The notes below the pieces were generated by a model. It did not search any database, had not been told where the DNA came from, and saw only the letters and a list, made by a program, of their open reading frames with translations. Of a stretch of 64,000 nt of DNA, positions 47,008-60,591 are shown one piece after another. How positions within the stretch are numbered: the first letter of the stretch is position 1; the number at the start of each line of letters is the position of its first letter. The DNA lies in contig NZ_JABFVK010000015.1 in assembly GCF_013362815.1 (NCBI RefSeq), forward strand, positions 1-64,000, written 5' to 3'. Source of the DNA: Hamadaea sp. Its GTDB lineage: Bacteria; Actinomycetota; Actinomycetes; Mycobacteriales; Micromonosporaceae. Both the position numbers and the translations under genes were made by a program.

Positions 47008-48321
47008 TCAGACGGTGGCGTTGTTGGGCAGGATCGCCGGCGACGCCAGGAGCCGGGCGACCCGTCGCTCCCGAGGCCGGCTCGCGAGCAGGTGACCGAC
47101 CGCGGCGGCGAGACCGGCCGCGCCGATGATGACCCAGTGCACGTCGCCGAGGTGCTCCAGCGACCAGCCGCCGACCGCGGGCGCGACGAATCCGGCGGCC
47201 GGGAAGGTCAGGAAGAACACCGCCTGGTAGCGAGCCCGTAGCCGGGCGGGGGCCAATTCGGCGATGACTTCGGCGTTCGGCGGTGCGGCGAGCATCGAGC
47301 CGATCGTCCAGATCGCCGCCGCCATCAGGTACGCGCCGAAGACGTCGGCGAAGGTGAGCGTGAAGTAGCCGATCCCGGAGATCGCGAGGGACAGCGCGAG
47401 CACCCGTCCCTTGAGCCGGCCCTGGATGAGCCGGGGGACGAAGAGCTGGCCGAGGACGATGAGCAGGCCCGGCACTGCGGCCACGATGCCGTACGCCGCC
47501 GGTGGCAGGCCGTCGGAGTCCATGGCCAGCTGCAGGATCGAGGTCTGCGAGTTGAGCACGGCGGCGATGAAGGTGAGCCCGACGAAGACCATGAAGATCG
47601 GGTCGGTGAGCGCCGTGCCGAGCCCGCCCGGGCCGGCCGACCGCTTGACCTGACCGCTGGCCGGGTGCGGACGCGAGCCGATGGGGCGGGGCGGCCAGGG
47701 CCGGGTGGCCCACGGACGCGACGGACGGCCCTGACGCAGCATCAGCGTCTCCGGCACATACCGGAAGAGCACGTACGCCGTGATCGCCGTCGTGGCGGCG
47801 TCGAGCGCGAAGAGGAGGAAGAAGCCCACCTCAGCGATCACGCCGGCGAGGGCCGAGGCGATCGCCGTACCGAGGTTGAAGGCCCAGAACTGCAGGTTGA
47901 ACGCCCGGGATCGGGAGTCCTCGGGAACGATGTCGATGATGGCCGCGACCGTCGCCGGACCCGGCATCGAGTGGAAGATCCCGATGAACAGGGTCAGCCC
48001 CGCGATGAGCCACAACGGCTGCGCGAACGCGAGACCCAGCATCAAGGCGGCGGCAATGCCGTTCGCGGTGACCATCGTCGCGCGACGGCCCCACTTGTCG
48101 GCCAGTACGCCGCCCATCAGGCTGCCGGCCGCGCCGCCGATGCCGTACCCGGCGGTGACCAGGCCCGCCGCGGTGAGCGAGAGCCCGCGTCCGGTGCTGA
48201 GGTAGAGCGGCAGGAAAAGCATGCCGAACGCGCCGACACGGTTGACGAGGATCGCCGACCAGAGGGTCCAGAAGACACGGGGAAGTCCTCCGGCGGTCTG
48301 CGACCAGAAGCGAGAGAACAA
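47008..48321 (-). CDS. MFS transporter, third gene of paralogous trio
   Basis: 437 residues, about 12 membrane helices, of the drug-efflux-like MFS group. Opening RFWSQTAGGLPRVFWTLWSA; motif A-like GSLMGGVLADKWGRR near 70; central loop rich in Pro/Trp/Arg (RPWATRPWPPRP). The best start is TTG at 48321, nine bases after AAGGA. The frame runs on into the upstream gene by chance, but identity with the paralogues starts here. About 12 bases separate it from the upstream gene's stop. Cargo unknown. Confidence 0.82.
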   Translation of the reverse strand: MFSRFWSQTAGGLPRVFWTLWSAILVNRVGAFGMLFLPLYLSTGRGLSLTAAGLVTAGYGIGGAAGSLMGGVLADKWGRRATMVTANGIAAALMLGLAFAQPLWLIAGLTLFIGIFHSMPGPATVAAIIDIVPEDSRSRAFNLQFWAFNLGTAIASALAGVIAEVGFFLLFALDAATTAITAYVLFRYVPETLMLRQGRPSRPWATRPWPPRPIGSRPHPASGQVKRSAGPGGLGTALTDPIFMVFVGLTFIAAVLNSQTSILQLAMDSDGLPPAAYGIVAAVPGLLIVLGQLFVPRLIQGRLKGRVLALSLAISGIGYFTLTFADVFGAYLMAAAIWTIGSMLAAPPNAEVIAELAPARLRARYQAVFFLTFPAAGFVAPAVGGWSLEHLGDVHWVIIGAAGLAAAVGHLLASRPRERRVARLLASPAILPNNATV

Positions 48322-48332
48322 GACGCGATTCC

Positions 48333-49589
48333 TTACGAAACGGGGGCTGGCTGCCGGGAAACAGCCGATGGGGGTGGGGCGAGGATCGCGGCTCTGCGTT
48401 CGCGCGCCGGTCCCGAGGCTACCTGAGCTGCGGCGACGACCAATCCGACGGCGGCGCACAGCAGCCACAGGAAGGTGTTGCCGAGGTGTTCCTGGAGGAA
48501 GCCGCCGGCCGTCGGGGCGACGAATCCGGCGATCGACCAGGAGAGGGAGAAGACGCCCTGGTAACGACCCCGCAGGTCGGCGGGGGACAGGGCGGCCATG
48601 GTGGTGGAGTTGGCCGGGGCGTTGACCATCTCGCCGAGCGTCCAGACGAAGACGGTGAAGGCGTAGAACAGCGGCGTGTTCGCGAACGCCGTCAACCCGA
48701 AGCCCACTCCGGTGACGATTGCCGCCAGCGCGAGCATCCGGGTCGGCGTCATCCCCCGGGTCATGCGGGGGATGAACAACTGGCCGAGCACGATCAGCAC
48801 ACCGTTGAGGGCGATCACGTAACCGTAGGTCTGCCCGGAGATGCCGTCGGCGGCCATGGCGATCGGCAGCGTCGTGAGGTGCTGGAGGAAGACGAACGCA
48901 CCCAGGATGTTCAGCCCGGCGAAGGTCAGGAAGATCCGGTCGGTGAACACGATCCGCAGCCCGCCGCGAGCAGCCGACGGGGCGGCGGCCGAACTGGTCG
49001 CGGGCCGAGCCGCTCGGGTCTCCTTCAAGGTGAAGAACAAGAAGGTTGCCGTGACGATCGTCGTCGCCGCGTCGATCAGGAACACCAAGTGGTAGTCCGC
49101 GGCGGCGGCCAAGCCGGCGAGCGTCGCGGCGAACGAGAAGCCGAGGTTGATCACCCAGTAGCTCAAGGTGAACGCCCGCAGGCGGTCCTTCTCCGGGACG
49201 ATGTCGATCAGCATCGCGCCGAACGCGGGGCGGGCGCCGTCGGCGAACACTCCGAAGAGGAAGGCGAGCCCGGCGATCGCCCAATACGGCTTGGCGTACG
49301 CCATCGCGATCAACGTCGCGGCCCCGCCGACCTGCCCGGTGAGCAGCGTGACCTTGCGGCCGATCCGGTCGGCCGCCACGCCGCCGAGCATGTTGCCCAA
49401 TGCGCCGCCGGCCGCCCAGACCCCCATGATCAGGCCGGCCTGCGACGGCGTGAAATGCCGCACCGTCGTCAGATAAATGGTGAGGAAGATGACGACGAAG
49501 CCGCCGACCCGATTGATCAGGGTCCCGAACCACAGATACCAGAACGGTCGCGGCAGACCGCCGGTCGTGTCACGCAACCAGCGCCTCAT
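48333..49589 (-). CDS. MFS transporter, second gene of paralogous trio
   Basis: 418 residues, about 12 membrane helices. Opening MRRWLRDTTGGLPRPFWYLW is nearly the same as in both neighbours (TxGGLPxxFW). Motif A-like GNMLGGVAADRIGRK; second half has GALNILGAFVFLQHLTTLP-type helix and YGYVIALNGVLIVLGQLFIP. ATG at 49589 follows AAGGGG and lies inside the end of the upstream gene (20-base overlap), which indicates coupling. Confidence 0.88.
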   Translation of the reverse strand: MRRWLRDTTGGLPRPFWYLWFGTLINRVGGFVVIFLTIYLTTVRHFTPSQAGLIMGVWAAGGALGNMLGGVAADRIGRKVTLLTGQVGGAATLIAMAYAKPYWAIAGLAFLFGVFADGARPAFGAMLIDIVPEKDRLRAFTLSYWVINLGFSFAATLAGLAAAADYHLVFLIDAATTIVTATFLFFTLKETRAARPATSSAAAPSAARGGLRIVFTDRIFLTFAGLNILGAFVFLQHLTTLPIAMAADGISGQTYGYVIALNGVLIVLGQLFIPRMTRGMTPTRMLALAAIVTGVGFGLTAFANTPLFYAFTVFVWTLGEMVNAPANSTTMAALSPADLRGRYQGVFSLSWSIAGFVAPTAGGFLQEHLGNTFLWLLCAAVGLVVAAAQVASGPARERRAAILAPPPSAVSRQPAPVS

Positions 49590-50811
49590 CGCGTACCCCT
49601 TCTGGCTGAGTGAGTTGAACGGCCCGGCGCTCGCGCGCGGGACCGGAAGCGAGATGACCTGCCGCGACGACCAGACCGAGGACCCCGAGGCCGAACCACA
49701 GCGTGGCCGGAGCGGTCCGGTCGAGGACCACACCGCCGATGATCGGCGCGAAGAAGTTGGCGGCGGTGAAGCTCATCGAGGCGACGCCTTGATAGCGCCC
49801 GCGCATCGTGGGGCTGGACAGGTCGGCGATGGTGGTGCCGTTGACCGGCGCATTGATCATTTCACCGAGCGTCCAGACGGCGACGGTGAGTGCCAGCGTG
49901 GGTACGCTTCCCGCCAGGCCGACCGCGCCCATCCCGAGCCCGACGAGCAGGGCCGAAGTGATCTGTACGCGATTACGCGGGTGCCGGCCGACGAGCTTGG
50001 GAATGAACAGTTGCAGCGCCACGATCATGATGCCGTTGACCGCGATGACCGTGCCGTAGTTGGCCGGGTCGATGCCCCGGTTCACCATGGCGATCGGGAT
50101 GAGCTTGCAGGACTCGATGATCGACCAGAGCCCGAGGTTGAGCAGCACGTACGTCATGAAGATCCGGTCACGCAGGACGAGACCGAGGCCGCCGCGCTCC
50201 TTGGGAGCCGACAGGGCCGGACCGGGCGACGTCTCGGGGACCTTCACGGCGATGATCACGGTGGTGATGGCGAGCACCGACGCGTTGAGGACGAAGACCA
50301 CCATGCGCGGGGTGTGCGCCAGTACGCCGGCCAGGAAGGCGGCGCCGGAGAACCCGAGGTTGATCGCCCAGTAGTTGAGGTTCATGCCGCGCATGCGCTT
50401 GGTCGGGCCGAGCACGTCGACCAGGGTGGCGCTGTACGCCGGCCGCCCGAGCCCGTTCCAGAAGCCGTACACCAGCGCGATGAGCGCGACGAACCAGGGC
50501 GTCAGAGTGATCCCGAGGGCGAGCGCGGTGACGACGCCGGCGATGTTGGCGAGCAGCAACGTCGGACGGCGGCCCCATCGGTCGGCCAGTACGCCGCCCG
50601 CGATCGAGCCGAGGGCCATGCCACCGCCGTACAGACCGAGTACCAGTCCGGCGAGCGTCGCGGAGAAGCCGTACCCCGAGACCATGTGGATCTCCAGGAA
50701 CAGCACAGCCACCGCACCGAGGCGGTTGATCAGCGTGCCGAGCCAGAGGTACCAGAAGGTGGCCGGCAGGCCACCCACCGTGTCGCCGGCCCAGGTACGC
50801 AGACTCCGCAC
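49570..50811 (-). CDS. MFS transporter, first gene of paralogous trio
   Basis: 413 residues, about 12 membrane helices. Opening LRTWAGDTVGGLPATFWYLW, motif A-like GSIAGGVLADRWGRRP near 67, ANYGTVIAVNGIMIVALQLF in the second half, and C-terminal HLASGPARERRA, a signature shared with the second gene. GTG at 50811 follows GGTGGTGG. It heads a three-gene operon and is divergent from gpmA. Exported compound unknown. Confidence 0.88.
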   Translation of the reverse strand: MRSLRTWAGDTVGGLPATFWYLWLGTLINRLGAVAVLFLEIHMVSGYGFSATLAGLVLGLYGGGMALGSIAGGVLADRWGRRPTLLLANIAGVVTALALGITLTPWFVALIALVYGFWNGLGRPAYSATLVDVLGPTKRMRGMNLNYWAINLGFSGAAFLAGVLAHTPRMVVFVLNASVLAITTVIIAVKVPETSPGPALSAPKERGGLGLVLRDRIFMTYVLLNLGLWSIIESCKLIPIAMVNRGIDPANYGTVIAVNGIMIVALQLFIPKLVGRHPRNRVQITSALLVGLGMGAVGLAGSVPTLALTVAVWTLGEMINAPVNGTTIADLSSPTMRGRYQGVASMSFTAANFFAPIIGGVVLDRTAPATLWFGLGVLGLVVAAGHLASGPARERRAVQLTQPEGVRDEALVA

Positions 50812-52127: not shown

Positions 52128-54686
52128 TCACACGGGTCGACCGCTGTCCCGGAGATGGGCCACCAATTCGACTCGGCTGCGTACGCCGAGCTTGCGATAG
52201 ATGTTCGCGAGGTGGGTCTCCACTGTTCGCTCGCCGATCACCAGCCGTTCGGCGATCTCCCGCGCCGACGCGCCCGCAGCGGCCAGCTCCAGCACTTCCT
52301 GCTCGCGCCGGGTCAGCGTCCGGCCGTCCGGTGGCTCGAATCGGTCGATTCGGCGTACGAGGCCGGAAAGGCCGCGTTCGGCGGCATAGCTCCGCGCACT
52401 CTTCACTTCCTGCGGATCGGCGCGCAATCGAGCCCGCTCCCACCGCACCCAAGCGAGCCACGGCGTGTGACCGACCACGCGCGCCGCGTCGTCCAGCCAG
52501 GCCGTAGCGCGCTTCGGGTCCGGCTCCAGCCGCGCGGCGATCAGCGCCGTCGGCCCCGCGCTTGCCGTCGCCGGTCCGGCCACAATCCATTTCCCGTGAT
52601 ACGCCGAAAGCAGTGCACCGAGCCGGTTGGCGGCGTCCGGGCCGGGCTCGGCGGCGGCGAGGAACGCGATCGTCCACGGATCGAGGGGCTGATCCACCAA
52701 CTCTTCGATGAGCGCGTCGGCCAGATCGTCCCGGCCGTCGGCGCGGGCCACCCACGCGGCGACTGCGGTTATCCATAGTGGACCGTTCACGTCCCGGAGG
52801 CGCTCGGCGAGATCGCCGGGTTCACCGTCGATCAGCCGCAGTCCGGCGTACGCCGCAAGGGTTTCCAGATCGGAACCGGCAAGCGCCCGCTCTCGGGCCG
52901 CCGAGGTCTTTCCCGCCAGCAACAGGCGGTGCACCTCGATCACCGGTACGCCGTCCACCTCGGCCAGCTGCCGGTCGGCCGGTCCGAGATCGCCGTCGGC
53001 GAGGGACAGCGCGGCCAACGCCCGATGCGCCCGGCTCAGCAGTACGCCGTCGTCCAGCGCACTCGCTTCGCGCAGCGCCTGCCGTAGCTGGTCGGCGTCC
53101 GGCTCGACCTGGGCGAGCAGGGCTTCGGCCATCGCCCGGGGGTCGGCGCATTCGCGGGCGGCCGCCAACGACTGCTCGGCGAGCGTGCGAGCCGCCGCTC
53201 CCGTCGACTCCAAGGCCAACCGGGCGCGCAGTCGCGCCACAGTAGACAGATCAGCGCCTTCGATCGAGTTGAGGAGCGCGAGGGCTTCAGTGAGTGCGGT
53301 GGCCCGCTGCGGATCGGTGGGCTCCGCCGTCGCGCCCGACCCCGATCGTGGCCCGTACGCCAAGGCCGCCTCCGCCAGCAGTCCAGCGTCTTTCGCTTGT
53401 CGCCCAAGGCGTACCGCTGCTGCAAACGCGTCGCGAGCCTGATCCCGACGCCCGGCCTGGAGTTGCGCGGACCCGAAGGCGACGAGCAGCCGGCCGAGGT
53501 GACCAGGCGACCACTGCGCGCGGGACGCGAGTTCGACGGCGACGGCGAACGCGTCGGCCGCCTCGACCGGGCGTTCGGCCGCCCGCGCGGACGCGACCGT
53601 GGCGGCCACCGCGCGATCGAGGCGCTCCTCACCGCCCAGTACGGCCGCCGCGACCAGGTGATGAGCCAGCTCCGCCACGGTCGGGGCCCGTTCGCCCGCC
53701 CGCGCGCCGACCGAGAGCAGCGCGTCGGCGACCGCCTCGTGCAAGCCGGCCGCCTCGGTCAGGCCGAGCGCGTCGTAACTCAGTTCGCGGGTGAGCGCGG
53801 AGTCGAAGGTGAACACACGGTCGGTCACCGGGCGGACCAGCCCGGCTGCGATCGCGGCCTCCAACGCGGGCAACGCCGCGTCTCCGGCGACCTCCTCCAC
53901 GATGGACAGATCGAACTCCCGCCCGACGACGGAGGCGACTCCGAGCACGTGCCGGGCGGACTCCGGCAGTGCAGTGAGGCGCTCGGTGATCAACCCAGTC
54001 GACGTCTCCGGCCAGCGCACCGCGACCCGGCGGCGGCCGTCGTCGGACTCCCGCAGCTGCCCGGCGATCGCAGCCAGCAACGCCGGACTGCCGTCGGAGC
54101 GGCGGCGCAGCTGCGTCGCGAGCGCCTCCGGCACCGGCCAGGCGACCGATCCGGCCAGCATCTCGGCGACCTCGTCCCGGCTCAGTCCCGGCAACCACAC
54201 CCGGTACGCCGCCGGACCGGTCGGCAGCGCTTCAGCCACCTCCGGGCGTACGACGGCGACGATGAGGGTCGGCGTGGCGGGTGGTTGATCGGCGTACTCG
54301 GCGAGCAGGGTCACCGTCGCCTCGTCGGCGCGGTGCAGATCATCCAGCGCGACGAGTAGCGGACCGGCGGCGGCGAAGGCGTCGGACAAGGCGGCCTGCG
54401 CCGACCAGACGTCCTCCACAGTGGAGCTTCCACCGAGCTCGGTCAGCACCCGTCGCCACGGCCAGAGCGGAGGTGCTCCCGCCGCCCGGGGCGGAGCCGC
54501 GCGTACGTAGCGCAGCCCCGGCGTACGCCGATGGAACTCCTCCAGCAGCCCGCTCGCTCCCCGGCCCGGCTCGGCGATCAGCAGCACCACCCGGAGCCGC
54601 CGCTCCTCGGCGACCGCACGAGCGTGGCCGGCCAGAGTTCCCAGCTCCACCGCGCGCCCGACGAACCGCACGACTCCCACCCCCAT
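52128..54686 (-). CDS. LuxR-family regulator with AAA/STAND ATPase (MalT/LAL type)
   Basis: 852-residue large ATP-binding LuxR-type activator. N-terminal ATPase: FVGRAVELGTLAGHARAV, modified Walker A LLIAEPGRGASGLLEEF near 36, Walker B LLVALDDLHRADEAT near 108. The middle is all-helical, TPR-like. The C-terminal LuxR HTH is GRTLTRREQEVLELAAAGAS then AREIAERLVIGERTVETHLA. The usual GxxGxGKT is degenerate (no Lys before Ser), so ATP binding may be altered. ATG at 54686 is outermost; GTG at 54680 has the better spacing from GGAAAGG. Divergent from the three-gene surface operon, which it probably controls. Confidence 0.87.
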   Translation of the reverse strand: MGVGVVRFVGRAVELGTLAGHARAVAEERRLRVVLLIAEPGRGASGLLEEFHRRTPGLRYVRAAPPRAAGAPPLWPWRRVLTELGGSSTVEDVWSAQAALSDAFAAAGPLLVALDDLHRADEATVTLLAEYADQPPATPTLIVAVVRPEVAEALPTGPAAYRVWLPGLSRDEVAEMLAGSVAWPVPEALATQLRRRSDGSPALLAAIAGQLRESDDGRRRVAVRWPETSTGLITERLTALPESARHVLGVASVVGREFDLSIVEEVAGDAALPALEAAIAAGLVRPVTDRVFTFDSALTRELSYDALGLTEAAGLHEAVADALLSVGARAGERAPTVAELAHHLVAAAVLGGEERLDRAVAATVASARAAERPVEAADAFAVAVELASRAQWSPGHLGRLLVAFGSAQLQAGRRDQARDAFAAAVRLGRQAKDAGLLAEAALAYGPRSGSGATAEPTDPQRATALTEALALLNSIEGADLSTVARLRARLALESTGAAARTLAEQSLAAARECADPRAMAEALLAQVEPDADQLRQALREASALDDGVLLSRAHRALAALSLADGDLGPADRQLAEVDGVPVIEVHRLLLAGKTSAARERALAGSDLETLAAYAGLRLIDGEPGDLAERLRDVNGPLWITAVAAWVARADGRDDLADALIEELVDQPLDPWTIAFLAAAEPGPDAANRLGALLSAYHGKWIVAGPATASAGPTALIAARLEPDPKRATAWLDDAARVVGHTPWLAWVRWERARLRADPQEVKSARSYAAERGLSGLVRRIDRFEPPDGRTLTRREQEVLELAAAGASAREIAERLVIGERTVETHLANIYRKLGVRSRVELVAHLRDSGRPV

Positions 54687-54891
54687 CCTTTCCGGCGACG
54701 CTATGCACTCCTGCGGCCGACCGGCCATCCTCCGCCCGGAGGGTACCCAGAGCGGTACGGATGGCGGTACGGAGAACCCGCGCGTGGGAAAGTTCCGTAC
54801 CCGGCCCGATGACCTCCGAGCGGCTCGCTTCCTACCTTCGTACTCGTTCCTGGCAAGCCCCCAGACAGCCACCGAGAAAGGATCGAAGGCC

Positions 54892-57090
54892 ATGTCCCAG
54901 TTCCGCGACGTGATCGCGCGGATGGCGGTGGACTCGGAGTTCGCCCGGCATGCGCGATCCCACCCCGACCAGGTGGCCGCCGAGTACGGGTTGACCTCCG
55001 AAGAGTCCGACCGCCTCCGCGGCCTGGCCGACGCCTCCACGGGCAGCGGCCCGCAGGCGCTCGGCGTACGCCTCTCCAAGAGCGGCGTCACGACCGGGGG
55101 GCTGGCGACCGCCCTCACCTCCGGCCCTCCCGACCTGCACGTGGATCCGCACGTCACCCCCGAGGTGCACGTCGCACCCGAAATCCACATCACCCCGCAC
55201 GTCGTCACACCGGCCGACGGCGGCCACGACGGCCCGGCCGACTCCGGCGGCGGCTCGGGAGCCGACGACGGCCCGAGCGGTCCCCCGCCCTCCGGCGGTG
55301 GCGACACCCCGCCCGGCGGTGGCGACTCGCCGTCCCCGGCGATCATCGTCCAAGGTGGACTGCACCCGACCCCCGACGGCTCGGGTGGCGGCGACGGCGG
55401 CCACGGCGGCCTGGAGATCGGCCCGAAGCAGGACGATCCCGCCCCGCCCCCGCCGAGCGACCTGCACCTGGCGCCCGGCGCATTGCACCTGACCGGCGGC
55501 GACGGCCCCGGCGACGGTCCCGGCGGCCTGCCGACCCCACCCACGCCGCCGACGCCGCCCGGTGGTGACCCGACGCCGATGAACCTCGTACTGCCCGACC
55601 TCGGGCACACCGACCCGCCCGACCCGATCGTGCCCGGCGGCGACGCTCCGCACCTGCTGCGAGACTTCGGCGACTTGGACTTCGGCACCGACGGCGACGG
55701 CACCGACGGCGGCGACGGCGGGGACGGCGGCTCGGATGGCGGCGGCTCAGGCGGCGGCGAGGAGCTCACTCCGATGCCTCCGGGCGGACGACTCGCCGGC
55801 CTCATCGGGTCGGACTTCCACCTGCCTGACATCGGCAATATCGGGGATCTCGGCGACGGCGGATCCGACGGCGGCGGCGACCCCGGCGTACCGGACTTCG
55901 GGCCGGACTCCGACGGCGACGGCCTGCCCGACTCGCTCGAAGGCCTCGGCACCTGGGGCGGCATCCCCGGCCTCGGCGGCGACCCAGGCGACGGCGGATC
56001 CGATGGCGGCGGCGACCCCGGCATGCCCGACTTCGGGCCGGACTCCGACGGCGACGGCCTGCCCGACTCGCTCGAAGGCCTCGGCACCTGGGGCGGCATC
56101 CCCGGCCTCGGCGGCGACCCAGGCGACGGCGGATCCGATGGCGGCGGCTTCCCGGGCTTCCCCGGCGGCCTGCCTGGCCTGGGGCTGGACACGGACGGCG
56201 ACGGCATCCCGGACGTCTTCGACTCGACGCCCGGCGGCGATCCCGCGCCCGACCCCGGCTTCCCCGGCGGTCTGGGGCTGCCCGATCTCACCGGCATCTT
56301 CGGGGACAACGACGGCGACGGTACGCCGAACTACCTCGACCCGACGCCCGACGGCCCGGTGTTCCCGCACTTCCCGGGCACGCTGCCGGACAGCGACGGC
56401 GACGGCACGCCGGACATCCTGGAGCCGGGCGGCATCATCGTCGACCCCGTGCACCCCATCGACCCGCACTTCCCGGGCACGCTGCCGGACAGCGACGGCG
56501 ACGGCACGCCGGACATCCTGGAGCCGGGCGGCATCATCGTCGACCCCGTGCACCCGACCGATCCGACCGACCCGGGCGACGTCCTCGGCGACCCGCCGGT
56601 CCTCGACCCGGGCGACGGCGGCGCGCCGACCGACCCGGGCACCGATCCCGGCCCCAGCGACCCCGGAACCGACGGCGGTACGCCGACCCCGGAGCCGTCG
56701 GACAGCGGGACCGGAACGGGCGGCACGGGCGGTGGCACCGGCCACACCGGCACGCCGACCCCGGAACCGCCGACGGAGCAGCCGCCGGTTCAGCAGCCGG
56801 AGACGGAGCAGCCCGAGACGGAGTCGCCGACGGCCGAGGCCGACGCGGCAGCCGCCTCGCATGCTCCGGCCACCACTCCGCCGGCCGACGGCGGGCAGGG
56901 TGGCGGCGGCGCGGCCGGCGCTCAGGGCGGCGACGCGAGCGACTCGGACGGCATCGGCATGACCGAGCTGGCCGTGGGCGCGGGCGGCGTGGTCGCCGGA
57001 GTCATCGTCGGTGGCATCGCGGGCGGCATCGCCGGGGCGAAGTTCGCCGGCAAGGACGACGACGAGGACAAGACGCAACCGAACGCTTAG
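54892..57090 (+). CDS. Asp/Gly/Pro-rich surface-type protein with RiPP-leader-like N-terminus and DxDGDG repeats
   Basis: 732 residues. ATG at 54892 follows GAAAGGATCGAAGG. Residues 1-48 (SQFRDVIARMAVDSEFARHA, then PDQVAAEYGLTSEESDRLRG) resemble NHLP/Os1348-type RiPP leader peptides rather than a signal peptide. A His/Val-rich stretch (HVTPEVHVAPEIHITPHVV) and low-complexity Asp-Gly-Pro follow. Six calcium-type loops come next (DSDGDGLPD twice, DTDGDGIPD, DNDGDGTPN, DSDGDGTPD twice), as in thrombospondin-3-like repeats. A Thr/Pro/Glu tail precedes a Gly-rich membrane helix (AVGAGGVVAGVIVGGIAGGI) and an acidic end. Likely surface-exposed; export route unclear. Confidence 0.75.
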   Translation: MSQFRDVIARMAVDSEFARHARSHPDQVAAEYGLTSEESDRLRGLADASTGSGPQALGVRLSKSGVTTGGLATALTSGPPDLHVDPHVTPEVHVAPEIHITPHVVTPADGGHDGPADSGGGSGADDGPSGPPPSGGGDTPPGGGDSPSPAIIVQGGLHPTPDGSGGGDGGHGGLEIGPKQDDPAPPPPSDLHLAPGALHLTGGDGPGDGPGGLPTPPTPPTPPGGDPTPMNLVLPDLGHTDPPDPIVPGGDAPHLLRDFGDLDFGTDGDGTDGGDGGDGGSDGGGSGGGEELTPMPPGGRLAGLIGSDFHLPDIGNIGDLGDGGSDGGGDPGVPDFGPDSDGDGLPDSLEGLGTWGGIPGLGGDPGDGGSDGGGDPGMPDFGPDSDGDGLPDSLEGLGTWGGIPGLGGDPGDGGSDGGGFPGFPGGLPGLGLDTDGDGIPDVFDSTPGGDPAPDPGFPGGLGLPDLTGIFGDNDGDGTPNYLDPTPDGPVFPHFPGTLPDSDGDGTPDILEPGGIIVDPVHPIDPHFPGTLPDSDGDGTPDILEPGGIIVDPVHPTDPTDPGDVLGDPPVLDPGDGGAPTDPGTDPGPSDPGTDGGTPTPEPSDSGTGTGGTGGGTGHTGTPTPEPPTEQPPVQQPETEQPETESPTAEADAAAASHAPATTPPADGGQGGGGAAGAQGGDASDSDGIGMTELAVGAGGVVAGVIVGGIAGGIAGAKFAGKDDDEDKTQPNA
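55855..56124 (+). repeat. Two 135-bp near-identical repeats inside the Asp-rich gene
   Basis: Copies 55855-55989 and 55990-56124, each coding 45 residues with one DSDGDGLPDSLEGLGTWGG segment. A third copy starts at 56125 and breaks off after about 25 bases. Confidence 0.88.
56366..56563 (+). repeat. Two 99-bp near-identical repeats inside the Asp-rich gene
   Basis: Copies 56366-56464 and 56465-56563 coding 33 residues each (HFPGTLPDSDGDGTPDILEP and onward to IIVDPVHP). Confidence 0.88.
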
Positions 57091-57124
57091 CACCTACTCG
57101 CGGAGAGCACCCTCCGCCGAGTAC

Positions 57125-57166
57125 GCCGGCCGGGGCCGAGTCTCCCCCGTGCTCGCCCCGGCCGGC
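57125..57166 (+). terminator. Hairpin after Asp-rich gene
   Basis: 12-bp stem GCCGGCCGGGGC (57125-57136) and complement (57155-57166), 35 bases after the stop. It may reduce read-through into the protease and kinase genes. Confidence 0.6.
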
Positions 57167-57182
57167 CCCTCCACCCCGATGG

Positions 57183-57245
57183 CTGCAGATCACGGTTACG
57201 CAGGCTAAAACCGCCGCGTGAAGCATGCGTAACCGTGATCTGCAG
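57183..57245. repeat. Palindromic intergenic element, family A copy 4
   Basis: 24-bp arms (57183-57206, CTGCAGATCACGGTTACGCA...; 57222-57245) with one mismatch and a 15-nt loop, directly before the FHA/M50 gene. Confidence 0.82.
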
Positions 57246-57274
57246 AGAACAGAGCCGAGTCAGAAAGGCCCGAA

Positions 57275-59008
57275 ATGCTCTGCCACGCCTGTCACGTGCA
57301 CCTGCGCCGGGACTACCCGTACTGCCTGCACTGCGGCACGCTGCGCAAAGGCGCCAAGGTCGCCGAGTTCGCCGCGCCGGAGTTGCGGCACGCCGGGCAG
57401 GCGTACCCGTTGGTCCGTCCAGTGACGACGATTGGGCGCACCAGCGACAACGACCTGATCCTGGACGACCCGAGCGTCTCGCGCCACCACGCCCGGATCA
57501 CCCGGGGCCCGGAGGGCTTCCTCATCGAGGACCTCAATTCGTTCAACGGCACCACGGTCGCGGGGCGTACGCTCCACGGCGATCGCGCGGCTCTGAACGA
57601 CGAGATGGAACTGATCTTCGGGGACGTGCCGGTTCGGTTCGCGCAACCGCGGAACGCGGCTATCGGGTCGAAGACGATGGTCAAGGGCACCGAGTACACG
57701 ATGCTCGCCGCCGCTCGGCAGCAACCCGAGGCGGCCACCGCGACCGAACCCCTTTCGGCGGTTCCCCGGCGTCGTTCGGGCTGGGCGCTCAAGCAGATCC
57801 CGGACAGTCGCGGGGTCGAGCAGTGGGTGCTCAGCAACACGCGTACGGGGCAGTATCTGCAGCTCGACGACCGGGACGCGTTCCTCTGGAACAGTCTCGA
57901 CGGCGAGAACAGCGTCCGCGACCTCCTCTTTCTGTACGCCGACAAGTACGGCGAACTGGCCCTCCCCCGGATCGAGCAGACCCTTCGGACGTTCGCGGCC
58001 ATCGGGCTCGTCCGCGGCCTGGCCGGGCAACGCGATCCGGAGCGCCCGCCACTGCTGAAGCGGATCGGCCAGGCGATCTTCCGCGCGCTGCTCCGCCTGG
58101 AACTGTCGGTGAAGGGGCTGGATCTCCTGTTCGGGCGGATGTACCGAGCGTTCGGCTGGCGCTTCTTCACGCGTACAAGTGTGATTTTGATGTGGATTTT
58201 GATCTTGAGTGGCGTCTACGCCTTCTTCGTCGCGCAGCGTGAGCAGGAGCTGTTCAACGTGGGCGGCGCGGGCCTGGCCGGTGCGATCATCGTCGCGGCC
58301 GTATGCCTGACAGCGCTGGCGATTCACGAGAGTGCGCACGCGCTGGCGGTGAAATCGTTCGGCCGCAAGGTGACCCGGGGCGGATTCATGCTGATGATGG
58401 GCATGCCGTTCGCCTTTGTGGACACGAGCGACATGTGGTTCGGGACTCGCTGGTCACGAATAGTCGTCACCCTGTCCGGTCCACTGTCGACGGCTGCCGT
58501 GGCGAGTGCGGCCTCCCTGGTCGCGGCGTACGCCCCCCAGCCGGTGGTGGCCGGGATCGCCTTCCAGATCGCGTTCGCGCTGTACCTGAACACCATTTAC
58601 AACCTGAACCCGCTGATGCCGCTCGACGGCTACCAGGCGTTGTCCGATGCGCTGCGGATGCCCCGGCTTCGGGAAGAGGCTTCGGCGTACTTCACCAAAG
58701 GCATCTGGGCCGACCTGCGCGGTGGCAAACGCCCTGGTCTGAAGCAGTGGGGCATGGCGGCGTACGGGATGACGGCAGTGCTCGGCATGACCGCGTTCAT
58801 GGTGATGGCCGTCTTCAGCTGGCGTACGCGACTCGACGGAATGGTGCAGAAGTACCTGCCCCACGGCTTCGCGATCCCGGTGATCGTCATCGGCCTGGGT
58901 GTCTTCATGTTTCCGATCTGGTTCCGCATCTACAAGAAGGTGTCCACACTGGTGCGGCGAACGGCGGCAAAGCGTTCGCTCACCGAGCCTGGGGAGGCGA
59001 CGGCATGA
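57275..59008 (+). CDS. Zinc-ribbon/FHA/PqqD-like/M50 site-2 protease chimera
   Basis: 577-residue membrane protein with an unusual domain order. The zinc ribbon CHAC...CLHC (Cys3, 6, 17, 20) is followed by an FHA phosphothreonine-binding domain (about 45-120; GRTSDNDLILDDPSVSRHHA, DLNSFNGTT). A PqqD/RRE-like domain follows (about 168-248; WVLSNTRTGQYLQLDDRDAF, FLYADKYGEL, FAAIGLVRGL). The membrane metalloprotease domain comes last, with HESAH at 351-355 and NPLMPLDG at 445-452 and about six helices. ATG at 57275 follows CAGAAAGG-type purines. The stop overlaps the kinase start (ATGA). It may bind a leader peptide through the PqqD domain and a kinase-made phosphothreonine through FHA. Confidence 0.87.
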   Translation: MLCHACHVHLRRDYPYCLHCGTLRKGAKVAEFAAPELRHAGQAYPLVRPVTTIGRTSDNDLILDDPSVSRHHARITRGPEGFLIEDLNSFNGTTVAGRTLHGDRAALNDEMELIFGDVPVRFAQPRNAAIGSKTMVKGTEYTMLAAARQQPEAATATEPLSAVPRRRSGWALKQIPDSRGVEQWVLSNTRTGQYLQLDDRDAFLWNSLDGENSVRDLLFLYADKYGELALPRIEQTLRTFAAIGLVRGLAGQRDPERPPLLKRIGQAIFRALLRLELSVKGLDLLFGRMYRAFGWRFFTRTSVILMWILILSGVYAFFVAQREQELFNVGGAGLAGAIIVAAVCLTALAIHESAHALAVKSFGRKVTRGGFMLMMGMPFAFVDTSDMWFGTRWSRIVVTLSGPLSTAAVASAASLVAAYAPQPVVAGIAFQIAFALYLNTIYNLNPLMPLDGYQALSDALRMPRLREEASAYFTKGIWADLRGGKRPGLKQWGMAAYGMTAVLGMTAFMVMAVFSWRTRLDGMVQKYLPHGFAIPVIVIGLGVFMFPIWFRIYKKVSTLVRRTAAKRSLTEPGEATA

Positions 59009-60591
59009 CCTGGTCGGTGCCGGGTTACACGGCGGTACAAGAATTGGGGCGCGGCGCCTCCGGGCTGGTCGTGCTCGCCACTCACAATCAGACGGGCGTA
59101 CCCGTCGCGATCAAATACCTCGCCGACAATCTGAAGCACGACGAGACCTTCCTCAGGGAGTTTCGCGCCGAGGCGCGCATTCTCGCGGAGGTACAGGACG
59201 ACCACGTCGCCCGCCTCTACGAGTACGTCGAAGATCCCGGCGGCGCGGCGATCGTCATGGAGCTGGTCAACGGCGTCGCCCTCCGCAAACTCATCCGCGA
59301 GCAAGGTCCGGCCGAGCCCGAGGCCGCGCTCGTCGTCCTCAAGGGATCGCTGCTCGGCCTGGCCGCCTCGCACAAGCTCGGCATCGTCCACCGCGACTAC
59401 AAGCCGGAAAACGTACTGGTCGACGCGGAGGGCCAGAGCAAGCTCGCCGACTTCGGCATCGCGGTCCGCGCCGGGCGTACCGGGGCGCTCGCGGGCACGC
59501 CCAGCTACATGGCCCCCGAGCAGTGGGCCGGCGGTACAGCCACGCCGCAGACCGACATCTACGCGGCGACCGCCACCTTCTTCGAGTGCCTCACGGGCGC
59601 GCCGCCCTATCGGGCGCCGGGTGACCTGGTCCAGCTCCGCCGACAGCACGAGTCCGCGCCCATTCCGGTCGACAATGCGCCAGAAGGGGTACGCGGACTG
59701 CTGCGACGCGGGCTCGCCAAGGATCCGGCGCAGCGCCCCACCAACGCGACGCTCTTCCTTCGGGAGTTGGAGGCAGTCGCCGGAGCGGCATACGGCCCCG
59801 AATGGGAGGAGGAGGGCAAGAAGAAGCTCGCCCGACGGGCTCTGCTGCTCGCAGCGCTCTTCCCGCTCGCGCTCGCCTCGATGTCCGGCACCGCCGTCGC
59901 GGACTCCTCCCTCGGTCGTGGACTGGGTCACAAGATCCGCTCGTTGTCGAGCGGAGTGAAGAAGGCGGTCGTCGCCGGAGCCATCACGGTCGTCGTCGTA
60001 GGCGGCGGAGTCGGCGGATGCGTCGCGCTCAACCCGACGGACGCCGCGAACACGTCGGCCCTCCCGTCCTCCTCGCCCTCCACCTCCCCTTCCGTTGAGC
60101 TGACCATCTCCGAGTCGCCCTCGGCCTCTCCGTCCGACTCGGCTTCTCCGTCGGTGTCGCCTACGACGGCCTCCCCCACCCCGACGAAGTCGAAGACGAA
60201 GTCCCCGTCCCCCAAACCCACTCCGACGTCGGCCAGTCCCAAACCGGCCCCGTCGATCATCCGGTTTGCTGCCGGCGGCACACCATCTCCGTCGCCGACC
60301 TGTGGGGCTGCCTGCACGACAGTGTGGTACCTCAAGGTCAGCGCGACGGCCTACTACGGTGGCTATGGCAACGCCGTTCTACACATCGGCATCTACAACC
60401 CGAATCTGGCCTCGCTCTGGGGCCCCAACAGCTATCCGTTCACCATCAACGGATCCGGCAGTTTCCCGAAGACCGTCTCGATTCCGCGATCTCAGGCGTG
60501 CGGCGATTACAAGGTCGTAATCCTGAAGGCATGGGTGACTATCGGCGGTGCCACCGTCAAGGAAGCTCAGGTCAACGTCAACTGCTACTAA
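59005..60591 (+). CDS. Membrane Ser/Thr protein kinase with extracytoplasmic C-terminal domain
   Basis: 528 residues from the ATG at 59005, coupled to the protease gene. PknB-type kinase (1-260): LGRGASGLVVLA, Lys37 in VAIKYL, catalytic IVHRDYKPENVL (Asp131, with Tyr in place of the usual Leu), LADFGIA and GTPSYMAPEQW. A hydrophobic segment with a signal-peptide-like end (about 278-299, SMSGTAVADSS) is followed by a second helix (320-342), a Ser/Pro/Thr linker (350-425) and a small Cys-containing beta-rich domain (430-528). No PASTA repeats. A sensor role for the outer domain is inferred; two helices leave topology open. Confidence 0.88.
   Translation: MTWSVPGYTAVQELGRGASGLVVLATHNQTGVPVAIKYLADNLKHDETFLREFRAEARILAEVQDDHVARLYEYVEDPGGAAIVMELVNGVALRKLIREQGPAEPEAALVVLKGSLLGLAASHKLGIVHRDYKPENVLVDAEGQSKLADFGIAVRAGRTGALAGTPSYMAPEQWAGGTATPQTDIYAATATFFECLTGAPPYRAPGDLVQLRRQHESAPIPVDNAPEGVRGLLRRGLAKDPAQRPTNATLFLRELEAVAGAAYGPEWEEEGKKKLARRALLLAALFPLALASMSGTAVADSSLGRGLGHKIRSLSSGVKKAVVAGAITVVVVGGGVGGCVALNPTDAANTSALPSSSPSTSPSVELTISESPSASPSDSASPSVSPTTASPTPTKSKTKSPSPKPTPTSASPKPAPSIIRFAAGGTPSPSPTCGAACTTVWYLKVSATAYYGGYGNAVLHIGIYNPNLASLWGPNSYPFTINGSGSFPKTVSIPRSQACGDYKVVILKAWVTIGGATVKEAQVNVNCY

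Follow-up and report, generated by a model that had tools for sequence, protein, structure and literature searches.

We analysed the first 64,000 nucleotides of contig NZ_JABFVK010000015.1 of Hamadaea sp. (GCF_013362815.1; positions 1-64,000, hereafter the window) and describe here a module, with genes at 52128-60591, that we propose at roughly even odds (about 0.5) to control, in response to a signal, the maturation of a large acidic protein with a leader. R (52128-54686, minus strand), a LuxR-type regulator of 852 amino acids (aa) with an N-terminal AAA_16-like ATPase domain, is divergent from A (54892-57090, plus strand), which encodes an acidic low-complexity protein of 732 aa with a leader. 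On the same strand follow B (57275-59008), encoding a 577-aa zinc ribbon-FHA-PqqD-M50 protein, and C (59005-60591), encoding a 528-aa membrane Ser/Thr kinase. These four genes had been picked out by an earlier reading of the same DNA (the original prediction), and the coordinates of all four were confirmed, as was the overlap of B and C, the stop codon of B lying within the ATGA at the start of C. That prediction missed a fifth gene, D, encoding a predicted membrane pseudokinase just past the window end (contig positions 64487-65869, plus strand; G000:C56), and so the module extends beyond 60591.

Leader protein A and the PqqD-M50 protein B

The first 77 residues of A (54892-55122, plus strand) comprise an NHLP/Os1348-like leader and a junction motif, GPxxLxxRLSKS. 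Residues 5-50 match the NCBIfam family NF038399 (Os1348 NHLP clan), with 22.7 bits (E 7.6e-5) when the whole protein was searched and 28.1 bits (E 1.6e-6) when the first 80 residues were used. All 15 rows of the leader alignment (A2) match this family at E ≤ 0.1, the best at 2e-9, bearing out the leader-like N-terminus that had been predicted; a weak match to Frankia_peptide (PF14407) was found in 7 of the 15. Within the leader and junction G53, P54, L57, R60 and S62 are invariant. While these 77 residues are conserved, the body that follows is hypervariable: identity between the window A and that of H. tsunoensis falls from 86% over the leader to 51% over the aligned, much-gapped middle, and is 60% at the C-terminus. 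The bodies are hundreds of residues long and nearly Cys-free, the middle having in Micromonosporaceae much D, G, P and in some cases H but little K, R, C and W, and in Streptomyces consisting of glycine to about one half; DxDGDG-type repeats occur in some members only. No signal-type hydrophobic stretch was seen at the N-terminus of A, the most hydrophobic part being a Gly-rich C-terminal segment (~residues 693-717; 56968-57042, plus strand; KD19 2.01 at residue 693), and the label of surface protein originally given to A is thus not upheld. Among the A proteins examined, those of Micromonosporaceae all have such a segment apart from the second A of locus L043 (= L067), and those of Streptomyces have none.

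B is composed of a zinc ribbon (residues 1-25), an FHA domain (39-122), a linker, a PqqD-like domain (180-248) and an M50 domain (~300-553). The FHA domain is supported both by its curated score (Pfam, 60.3 bits, cut-off 20.7) and by its fold, with OdhI, GarA and the FhaA-Rv3910 complex 3oun among the matches; FHA was the only domain of B among the fold matches listed, which is neutral as to PqqD and M50. In Pfam the M50 domain scored 24.4 bits, under its cut-off of 27.2, and the PqqD-like domain 20.2 bits, under 23.4. A single alignment to NF041824 (daptide_HExxH) spans both, with PqqD N-terminal to the M50 core (144.1 bits, E 6e-42, cut-off 300; model positions 15-351 of 379 on residues 180-523). 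This family is matched by 14/14 B homologues, and YydH/LiaK (NF058609) by 13 of the 14. A PqqD-like segment, as in the original prediction, is thereby favoured over a different fold on the ground of sequence, the structure model being weak there (mean predicted local distance difference test score, pLDDT, of 62.6 for the whole of B; strands then helices in the low-confidence PqqD segment). H351, E352, H355 and D451 are invariant in all 14 B proteins and form an HExxH motif with a distal Asp as in M50/site-2 proteases, and the multiple hydrophobic segments of B are in line with this assignment; T134, directly after the FHA domain, is likewise invariant in 14/14. Judged by its sequence, B is a relative of the daptide leader peptidases, and the catalytic residues of both B and C are intact.

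We assessed the distribution of these genes in 200 genomes of the same family (Micromonosporaceae), the source genome included. Relatives of B were found at E ≤ 1e-20 in 105 of the 200, and in 21 of these (own genome included) the match began at residue 1, thus covering the FHA part, while the others matched from about residue 150, mostly in open frames of ~1000-1370 aa. Strong A leaders (E < 1e-15) were present in 21/21 genomes with an FHA-type B and in 0/179 others; in 16 of the 21 the leader lies ≤5 kb from B, two belong to a genus in which the module is split, and in three (G080, G087, G128) B is at a contig end. In other samples FHA-type B was found at E 1e-90 in 4/394 genomes of a class sample (own included) and in 4/297 Streptomycetaceae.

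A lack of co-occurrence elsewhere had been named in the original prediction as one of the findings that would refute it, and this is clearly not the case: A-B-C-D recurs in Micromonosporaceae and Streptomyces. Twenty-four loci were named, from Hamadaea, Catellatospora, Catelliglobosispora, Rhizocola, a Micromonosporaceae metagenome-assembled genome (MAG), a Jatrophihabitans MAG and Streptomyces (10 loci); loci L063, L064, L067 and L068 duplicate the sequences of L054, L056, L043 and L044. By BLAST, C adjoins B in 24/24 and D is present in 23/24, the exception (L035) being a 4-kb contig; D directly follows C in the Catellatospora and Streptomyces loci. An A leader lies upstream of B in 20/24 (10 Micromonosporaceae loci and 10/10 Streptomyces), and in the four loci without a seen leader B is ≤1.4 kb from a contig end: L035 includes the C-terminus of A, neither L039 nor L040 shows an A, and B of L055 (Jatrophihabitans) is preceded by an acidic open reading frame whose start is outside the view. 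Two A genes are present in L036, L043 and L056. An ATGA or GTGA occurs at the B stop in 24/24 loci (the window and 23 of the 24 named; L057, with B in several frames, was left out), and the kinase frame is open from this overlap in 22 of the 24, not in L042 and L054. In genus g40 (G040, G062) the module is split into B-D (L065, L066) and R-A-C (L103, L104), 20-30 kb apart, with all parts kept. The presence of the same genes together in many genomes makes the arrangement more than a chance observation.

The FHA-less relatives of B define a second system. When 71 weaker leader matches (E ≥ 1e-10) were set against the FHA-less PqqD-M50 genes (85 genomes), 48 followed the protease match on its strand at a distance of 2.07-4.56 kb and 23 did not; over the 200 genomes the counts for both, protease only, leader only and neither were 77/28/4/91 (Fisher p 3e-26, not corrected for relatedness). 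In loci L106, L109 and L110 the protease (~1070-1170 aa in L109 and L110) is followed by a leader protein that has Asp-rich repeats and a Gly-rich stretch and by eye ends Asp-rich rather than hydrophobic; two leaders of the second system pass the NF038399 cut-off (43.7 and 41.0 against 40 bits). In the four loci of this system that were read (L106, L109, L110, L111) no neighbouring C- or D-type kinase was recognised, and the C-terminal part of its protease looks, by eye, cNMP-binding and FecR-like. The best argument for a joint function of PqqD-M50 and leader is that the pairing recurs here in proteins otherwise unlike those of the window. Two leaders of the second system also match, weakly, the IniB N-terminal domain (E ~0.005), and a distant link between NHLP leaders and this domain is possible.

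A-type leaders were further found away from any B gene. On contig C12 of the source genome, where the window B is the sole full-length B relative found, an orphan gene (L100:8435-9211, 258 aa) carries an RLSKSG junction before many CNGH/CDGH repeats; its product is possibly metal-binding and a further substrate of B. Contig C17 encodes a 91-aa leader-like protein without the RLSKS junction (L101:8029-8304, minus strand), similar to a 102-aa protein of a genome of the same genus (G039, L107:7397-7705). In genus g17 (Catellatospora by sequence) orphan leaders of ~100 aa have the full junction motif and a charged tail (L102:8271-8579 and L108:8530-8835), and other g17 genomes gave similar short orphan matches in the 200-genome leader search.

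Besides B, C, D and R, clustering of 301 called genes from 26 loci gave ten clusters common to at least two genera, from which A is absent owing to its low complexity. They include an MFS transporter, recurring in the flank across five genera, a glycosyltransferase, a short-chain dehydrogenase and a YbjN-like gene and, by eye, a methyltransferase-like gene, two phosphoglycerate-mutase-type genes and a macro-domain-like gene (Catellatospora and Streptomyces). In the window genome C and D are separated by genes at 60698-64372, namely a DUF559/REase (restriction endonuclease)-like gene, one for a membrane protein and a pair encoding a histidine kinase and a response regulator, and a DUF559-like cluster occupies the C-D interval in other Hamadaea and g10 loci as well; three adjacent MFS transporter genes (Pfam MFS_1) lie at 47008-50811 of the window, minus strand. 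Most of the shared neighbours look like a common chromosomal flank in Micromonosporaceae, so that the module seems to be vertically inherited there, whereas its rarity in Streptomyces (4/297) suggests gain by transfer. The RiPP (ribosomally synthesised and post-translationally modified peptide) logic that the original prediction had seen in the locus is borne out in part only. The leader family stands, but no typical RiPP modifying enzyme and none of the daptide set (oxidative decarboxylase with DUF-RRE partner, aminotransferase, methyltransferase) was recognised in 17 proteins of the window region (Pfam) or in the multi-genus clusters, not every neighbour having been scanned; the short-chain dehydrogenase and the methyltransferase-like gene just named do stand 2-4 kb past D.

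Kinase C, pseudokinase D and regulator R

C is an active-type kinase by its motifs (Pkinase, E 2.3e-45), the K, HRD, DFG and APE elements being present here and in 14/14 C proteins, two of which fall outside the DFG pattern used and read DFGIS. The kinase domain (~1-262) is followed by a second hydrophobic stretch (275-293), a transmembrane (TM) segment (~322-340), a Ser/Thr/Pro-rich stretch and a Cys-containing C-terminal domain. The first ~200 residues of D are also kinase-like (PknA, E 3.8e-10; kinase folds among the structure matches), with HG followed by A, D, E, S or T at the HRD position in 14 of 15 rows (the remaining one, L055, is without the domain) and with DFG lost. In the structure model the kinase-like domain has high confidence, residues 220-298 form a disordered linker, 312-341 a TM helix and 346-442 a beta-sandwich, and D is, as modelled, a pseudokinase of this layout. 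We infer the topology of both C and D, with membrane and probably outer domains that could in principle be shed.

A single Thr stands out in the D linker. In alignment A4 (15 D rows; L065, L066 and L069 left out) it is invariant in 15/15 rows within the motif A-T-x-[LM]-G-x-R, while the linker around it is otherwise unalignable. The shortened D of L055, which has no kinase-like domain, keeps two copies of the motif together with the TM segment and the C-terminal domain. The D linker is a likely FHA partner of B, and the scheme first predicted, in which the kinase acts on the protease or on A, is probably incomplete. In the split genus D is followed by a gene of ~500 aa (L065:3589-5091, L066:3815-5305). 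In PADLOC, matches of kinase type were obtained for C (34 families) and for the D of L036 (10), mostly PD-T4-6, and none for A or B at E 0.01; a role in anti-phage defence was set aside.

In R, Pfam recognised GerE (70 bits) and, under its cut-off of 32.6, AAA_16 (30.3 bits). An R homologue adjoins A in the split genus and in 10/10 of those named Micromonosporaceae loci that show an A leader, while BLAST found no R match in the 10 Streptomyces loci. A candidate R operator and A promoter (54764-54811, plus strand) consists of a GCGGTACGGA box (GTAC at 54767) and then AAAGTTCCGTACCCGGCCCGATG at 54789-54811 (GTAC at 54797), the GTAC cores being 30 bp apart, with more GTAC boxes at 54743 and 54755. 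Two boxes 29-31 bp apart precede A in most R-bearing loci; in L103 and L104 the second alone is clear, and in L056 there is no GTAC before the second A, the site preceding the first A in G042 (identical locus sequence). From the GTAC sites upstream of A we derived the pattern AAAGWTMMGTACYNRNCNSGATG, whose presence in the source loci is by construction but whose near-uniqueness per genome is not. At ≤2 mismatches it has two sites in the window genome, before A and before a predicted lipoprotein gene (reversed-pattern control, 1). In 15 further genomes, at ≤1 mismatch, it was found in 10/11 with A, each time 34-107 nt before the leader (control, 0); no site was found in G040, and 0/4 genomes without a strong A leader had one. 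Presumably R binds these boxes and regulates A. The lipoprotein gene (recognised by eye) has the double GTAC promoter of A at C66 89256-89278 of the source genome, and G061 has an extra AAAGWTMMGTACYNRNCNSGATG site before its orthologue (G061:C1:275495, L125); this gene is likely a second R target. The orphan leader genes of the window genome were dismissed as R targets, since the pattern matched just A and the lipoprotein gene.

Strong RNA hairpins lie 3' of the A stop (~57095-57123, 57125-57166 and 57183-57242, plus strand) and form a candidate attenuator before B; the third contains a perfect inverted repeat of 20 bp, which G061 (L060) has in almost the same form. Against 100 dinucleotide shuffles, the folding z of the A-B gap in 11 Micromonosporaceae loci was -10.0 for the window (0/100 shuffles as low), -7.9 for L060, -4.2 to -3.1 for six loci, -2.0 for L045 and -1.6 for L036 and L044. 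A hairpin in every gap is thus a weakened proposal, two of the 11 (L036, L044) being unexceptional; a strong hairpin after A is common among the loci and would fit A being made in excess.

A proposed model of gated leader removal and its rivals

In the model that we propose, R would activate A through the GTAC boxes, and the helical NHLP-type leader of A would be bound by the cytosolic PqqD-like domain of B. C may sense an outside signal via its C-terminal domain and would then phosphorylate the linker Thr of D, acting as a pseudokinase receptor; the FHA domain of B would dock on this phospho-Thr, bringing B and its bound A to D, and the M50 domain would remove the leader by a cut close to the conserved RLSKS(S/G) junction, as proposed for MpaP. 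Two parallels, MpaP and PknB-MviN-FhaA, when joined lead to this model as the best explanation. Tentatively, we extend it to a phosphorylation-gated leader peptidase, running from membrane kinase to pseudokinase to FHA-PqqD-M50 and maturing large, fast-evolving acidic proteins, as part of a general route of protein maturation in actinobacteria that has at least two versions, one controlled by kinase and FHA and one not, and lies outside natural-product biosynthesis.

Several observations weigh against this model. The PqqD assignment falls below the Pfam cut-off and reaches E 0.001 in just 6/14 B members, with pLDDT blocks of 43-65 in that segment of the B model; the window A leader is likewise under the NF038399 cut-off (28.1 against 40 bits). 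The D linker motif, found in 13/15 rows of alignment A3 (with L065, L066 and L069) against 0.45 expected from shuffles, was written as a pattern after the alignment had been inspected and among related rows, and it is missing from the split-genus D proteins (L065, L066). B of that genus moreover travels with D, away from A. Among the genes shared by at least two genera no exporter or phosphatase was recognised except the MFS transporter of the syntenic flank. Finally, 28 of the 105 PqqD-M50 genomes gave no leader match, and locus L111 of the second family has no leader gene beside its protease.

The most probable rival, which we nevertheless consider somewhat unlikely, is that the phospho-Thr recognised by the FHA domain belongs to B or to C and not to D, giving an intramolecular switch like that of OdhI and GarA. 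The invariance of T134 in all B proteins, the presence of the OdhI and GarA FHA domains among the best matches and the lack of the linker motif in the split-genus D all speak for it, but it is compatible with docking on D as well, and it leaves aside the conservation of the D Thr within an otherwise unalignable linker and the retention of the motif in the shortened D of L055.

A further alternative, to which we give rather little credence, is regulated intramembrane proteolysis, in which A is tail-anchored and B frees a cytosolic protein or signal by cutting the Gly-rich C-terminal helix of A, while the leader serves just to dock A. M50 site-2 proteases do act at membrane segments, SpoIVFB with Pro-sigmaK being a known case (PMC11486902), and nearly all examined Micromonosporaceae A proteins have the hydrophobic C-terminus. 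Yet the PqqD-M50 pairing still holds where this helix is absent, in the Streptomyces A proteins, the second A of L043 and the Asp-rich ends of the second-system substrates (by eye), and the leader and junction are the sole parts common to the substrates. Leader removal is therefore preferred over cutting of the C-terminal helix, which the original prediction had offered as one of two options; since the examined Streptomyces A proteins have no such helix, its cleavage is not a general step, and cleavage solely at this site was rejected as a general rule. C39-type double-Gly processing of the leader was also rejected: GG or G follows RLSKSGxx in most Micromonosporaceae leaders and not in Streptomyces, and no C39 gene was seen, none having been searched for.

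We regard it as unlikely, too, that the leader is an uncleaved anchoring or assembly tag by which B holds A at D while the protease acts on another protein, such as D or C with their probable outer domains. In the split genus B adjoins D and not A, so that the B-D relation is at least as tight as that of A and B. Against this, strong leaders occur in exactly those sampled genomes that have an FHA-type B, leader proteins of the second system stand beside PqqD-M50 without a recognised kinase or D in the loci read, and the closest families of B are leader-removing peptidases. Least probable of all is a true RiPP pathway with modifying enzymes elsewhere in the genome, B as leader peptidase and a modified core in A or in the short orphan leaders: the leader family is RiPP-associated, short orphan genes (91-102 aa) occur in the window genome and Catellatospora, and two genes ~2-4 kb past D, a short-chain dehydrogenase and (by eye) a methyltransferase-like one, have counterparts in some relatives, but these two come after the YbjN gene and the glycosyltransferase and have the look of syntenic flank, typical modifying enzymes were recognised neither in the multi-genus clusters nor among 10 scanned window neighbours (whole genomes were not searched), and the A bodies are long, nearly free of Cys and very variable.

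Relation to known systems

Small-peptide natural products are the known setting of RiPP leaders and RRE (RiPP recognition element)-type binding domains; in the module both are apparently reused for recognising and maturing proteins of ~250-800 residues under Ser/Thr kinase control. If true, the module would be a directly testable case of signal-controlled leader proteolysis, with a defined substrate that has a near-unique promoter, and would supply a function for some unassigned actinobacterial FHA and pseudokinase proteins. The occurrence of the second, kinase-free version across many Micromonosporaceae points to a general way of maturing proteins, one that would escape a search based on modifying enzymes, and the module would link two kinds of bacterial machinery usually studied apart. 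In agreement with the original prediction, we found no paper describing such a gene set in the open-access PMC (PubMed Central) literature. The available passages of the NHLP paper (PMC2887384) mention, for a group of Burkholderia precursors, a large Ser/Thr kinase as neighbour, in a TOMM (thiazole/oxazole-modified microcin) setting different from the module, and those of the RRE-Finder paper (PMC7470986) do not mention FHA, kinase or M50.

The closest relative of B is the daptide peptidase MpaP/DapP (NF041824), which likewise has a PqqD/RRE-like domain fused to M50, aligned over ~340 residues; MpaP is described in the available passages of PMC10036551 as an RRE-dependent intramembrane peptidase removing the daptide leader, leader removal being the role proposed for it. 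B differs in its score (144.1 bits against a cut-off of 300), in its extra zinc ribbon and FHA domain, in the lack of a recognised daptide enzyme set nearby and in its likely substrate, which is hundreds of residues long with another type of leader. With YydH/LiaK (NF058609), 13/14 B proteins have the M50-type HExxH core in common, but B scores 33 bits against a cut-off of 225, and no epipeptide gene was recognised in the loci. The first ~50 residues of A resemble the Os1348 NHLP leaders (NF038399) and PF14407, whereas the window A is under their cut-offs, has a long acidic body after the leader and has no modification enzymes recognised nearby. As these scores all lie under the curated daptide, epipeptide and Os1348 cut-offs, we class the module as working like these systems rather than as a member of any.

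The regulatory half recalls PknB-MviN-FhaA, in which, according to the available passages of PMC12599244, a phosphorylated pseudokinase tail recruits an FHA protein: an active-type kinase (C), a membrane pseudokinase (D) whose C-terminal tail contains a Thr, and an FHA partner (B) are here encoded together. The FHA partner of our module is, in contrast, a protease with a leader-binding-type domain, and D has one modelled TM helix and is no MviN flippase. SpoIVFB with Pro-sigmaK (PMC11486902) is alike in being an M50 protease with an extra cytosolic domain that cuts a pro-sequence; its extra domain is CBS where that of B is FHA-PqqD, and its substrate is a sigma factor.

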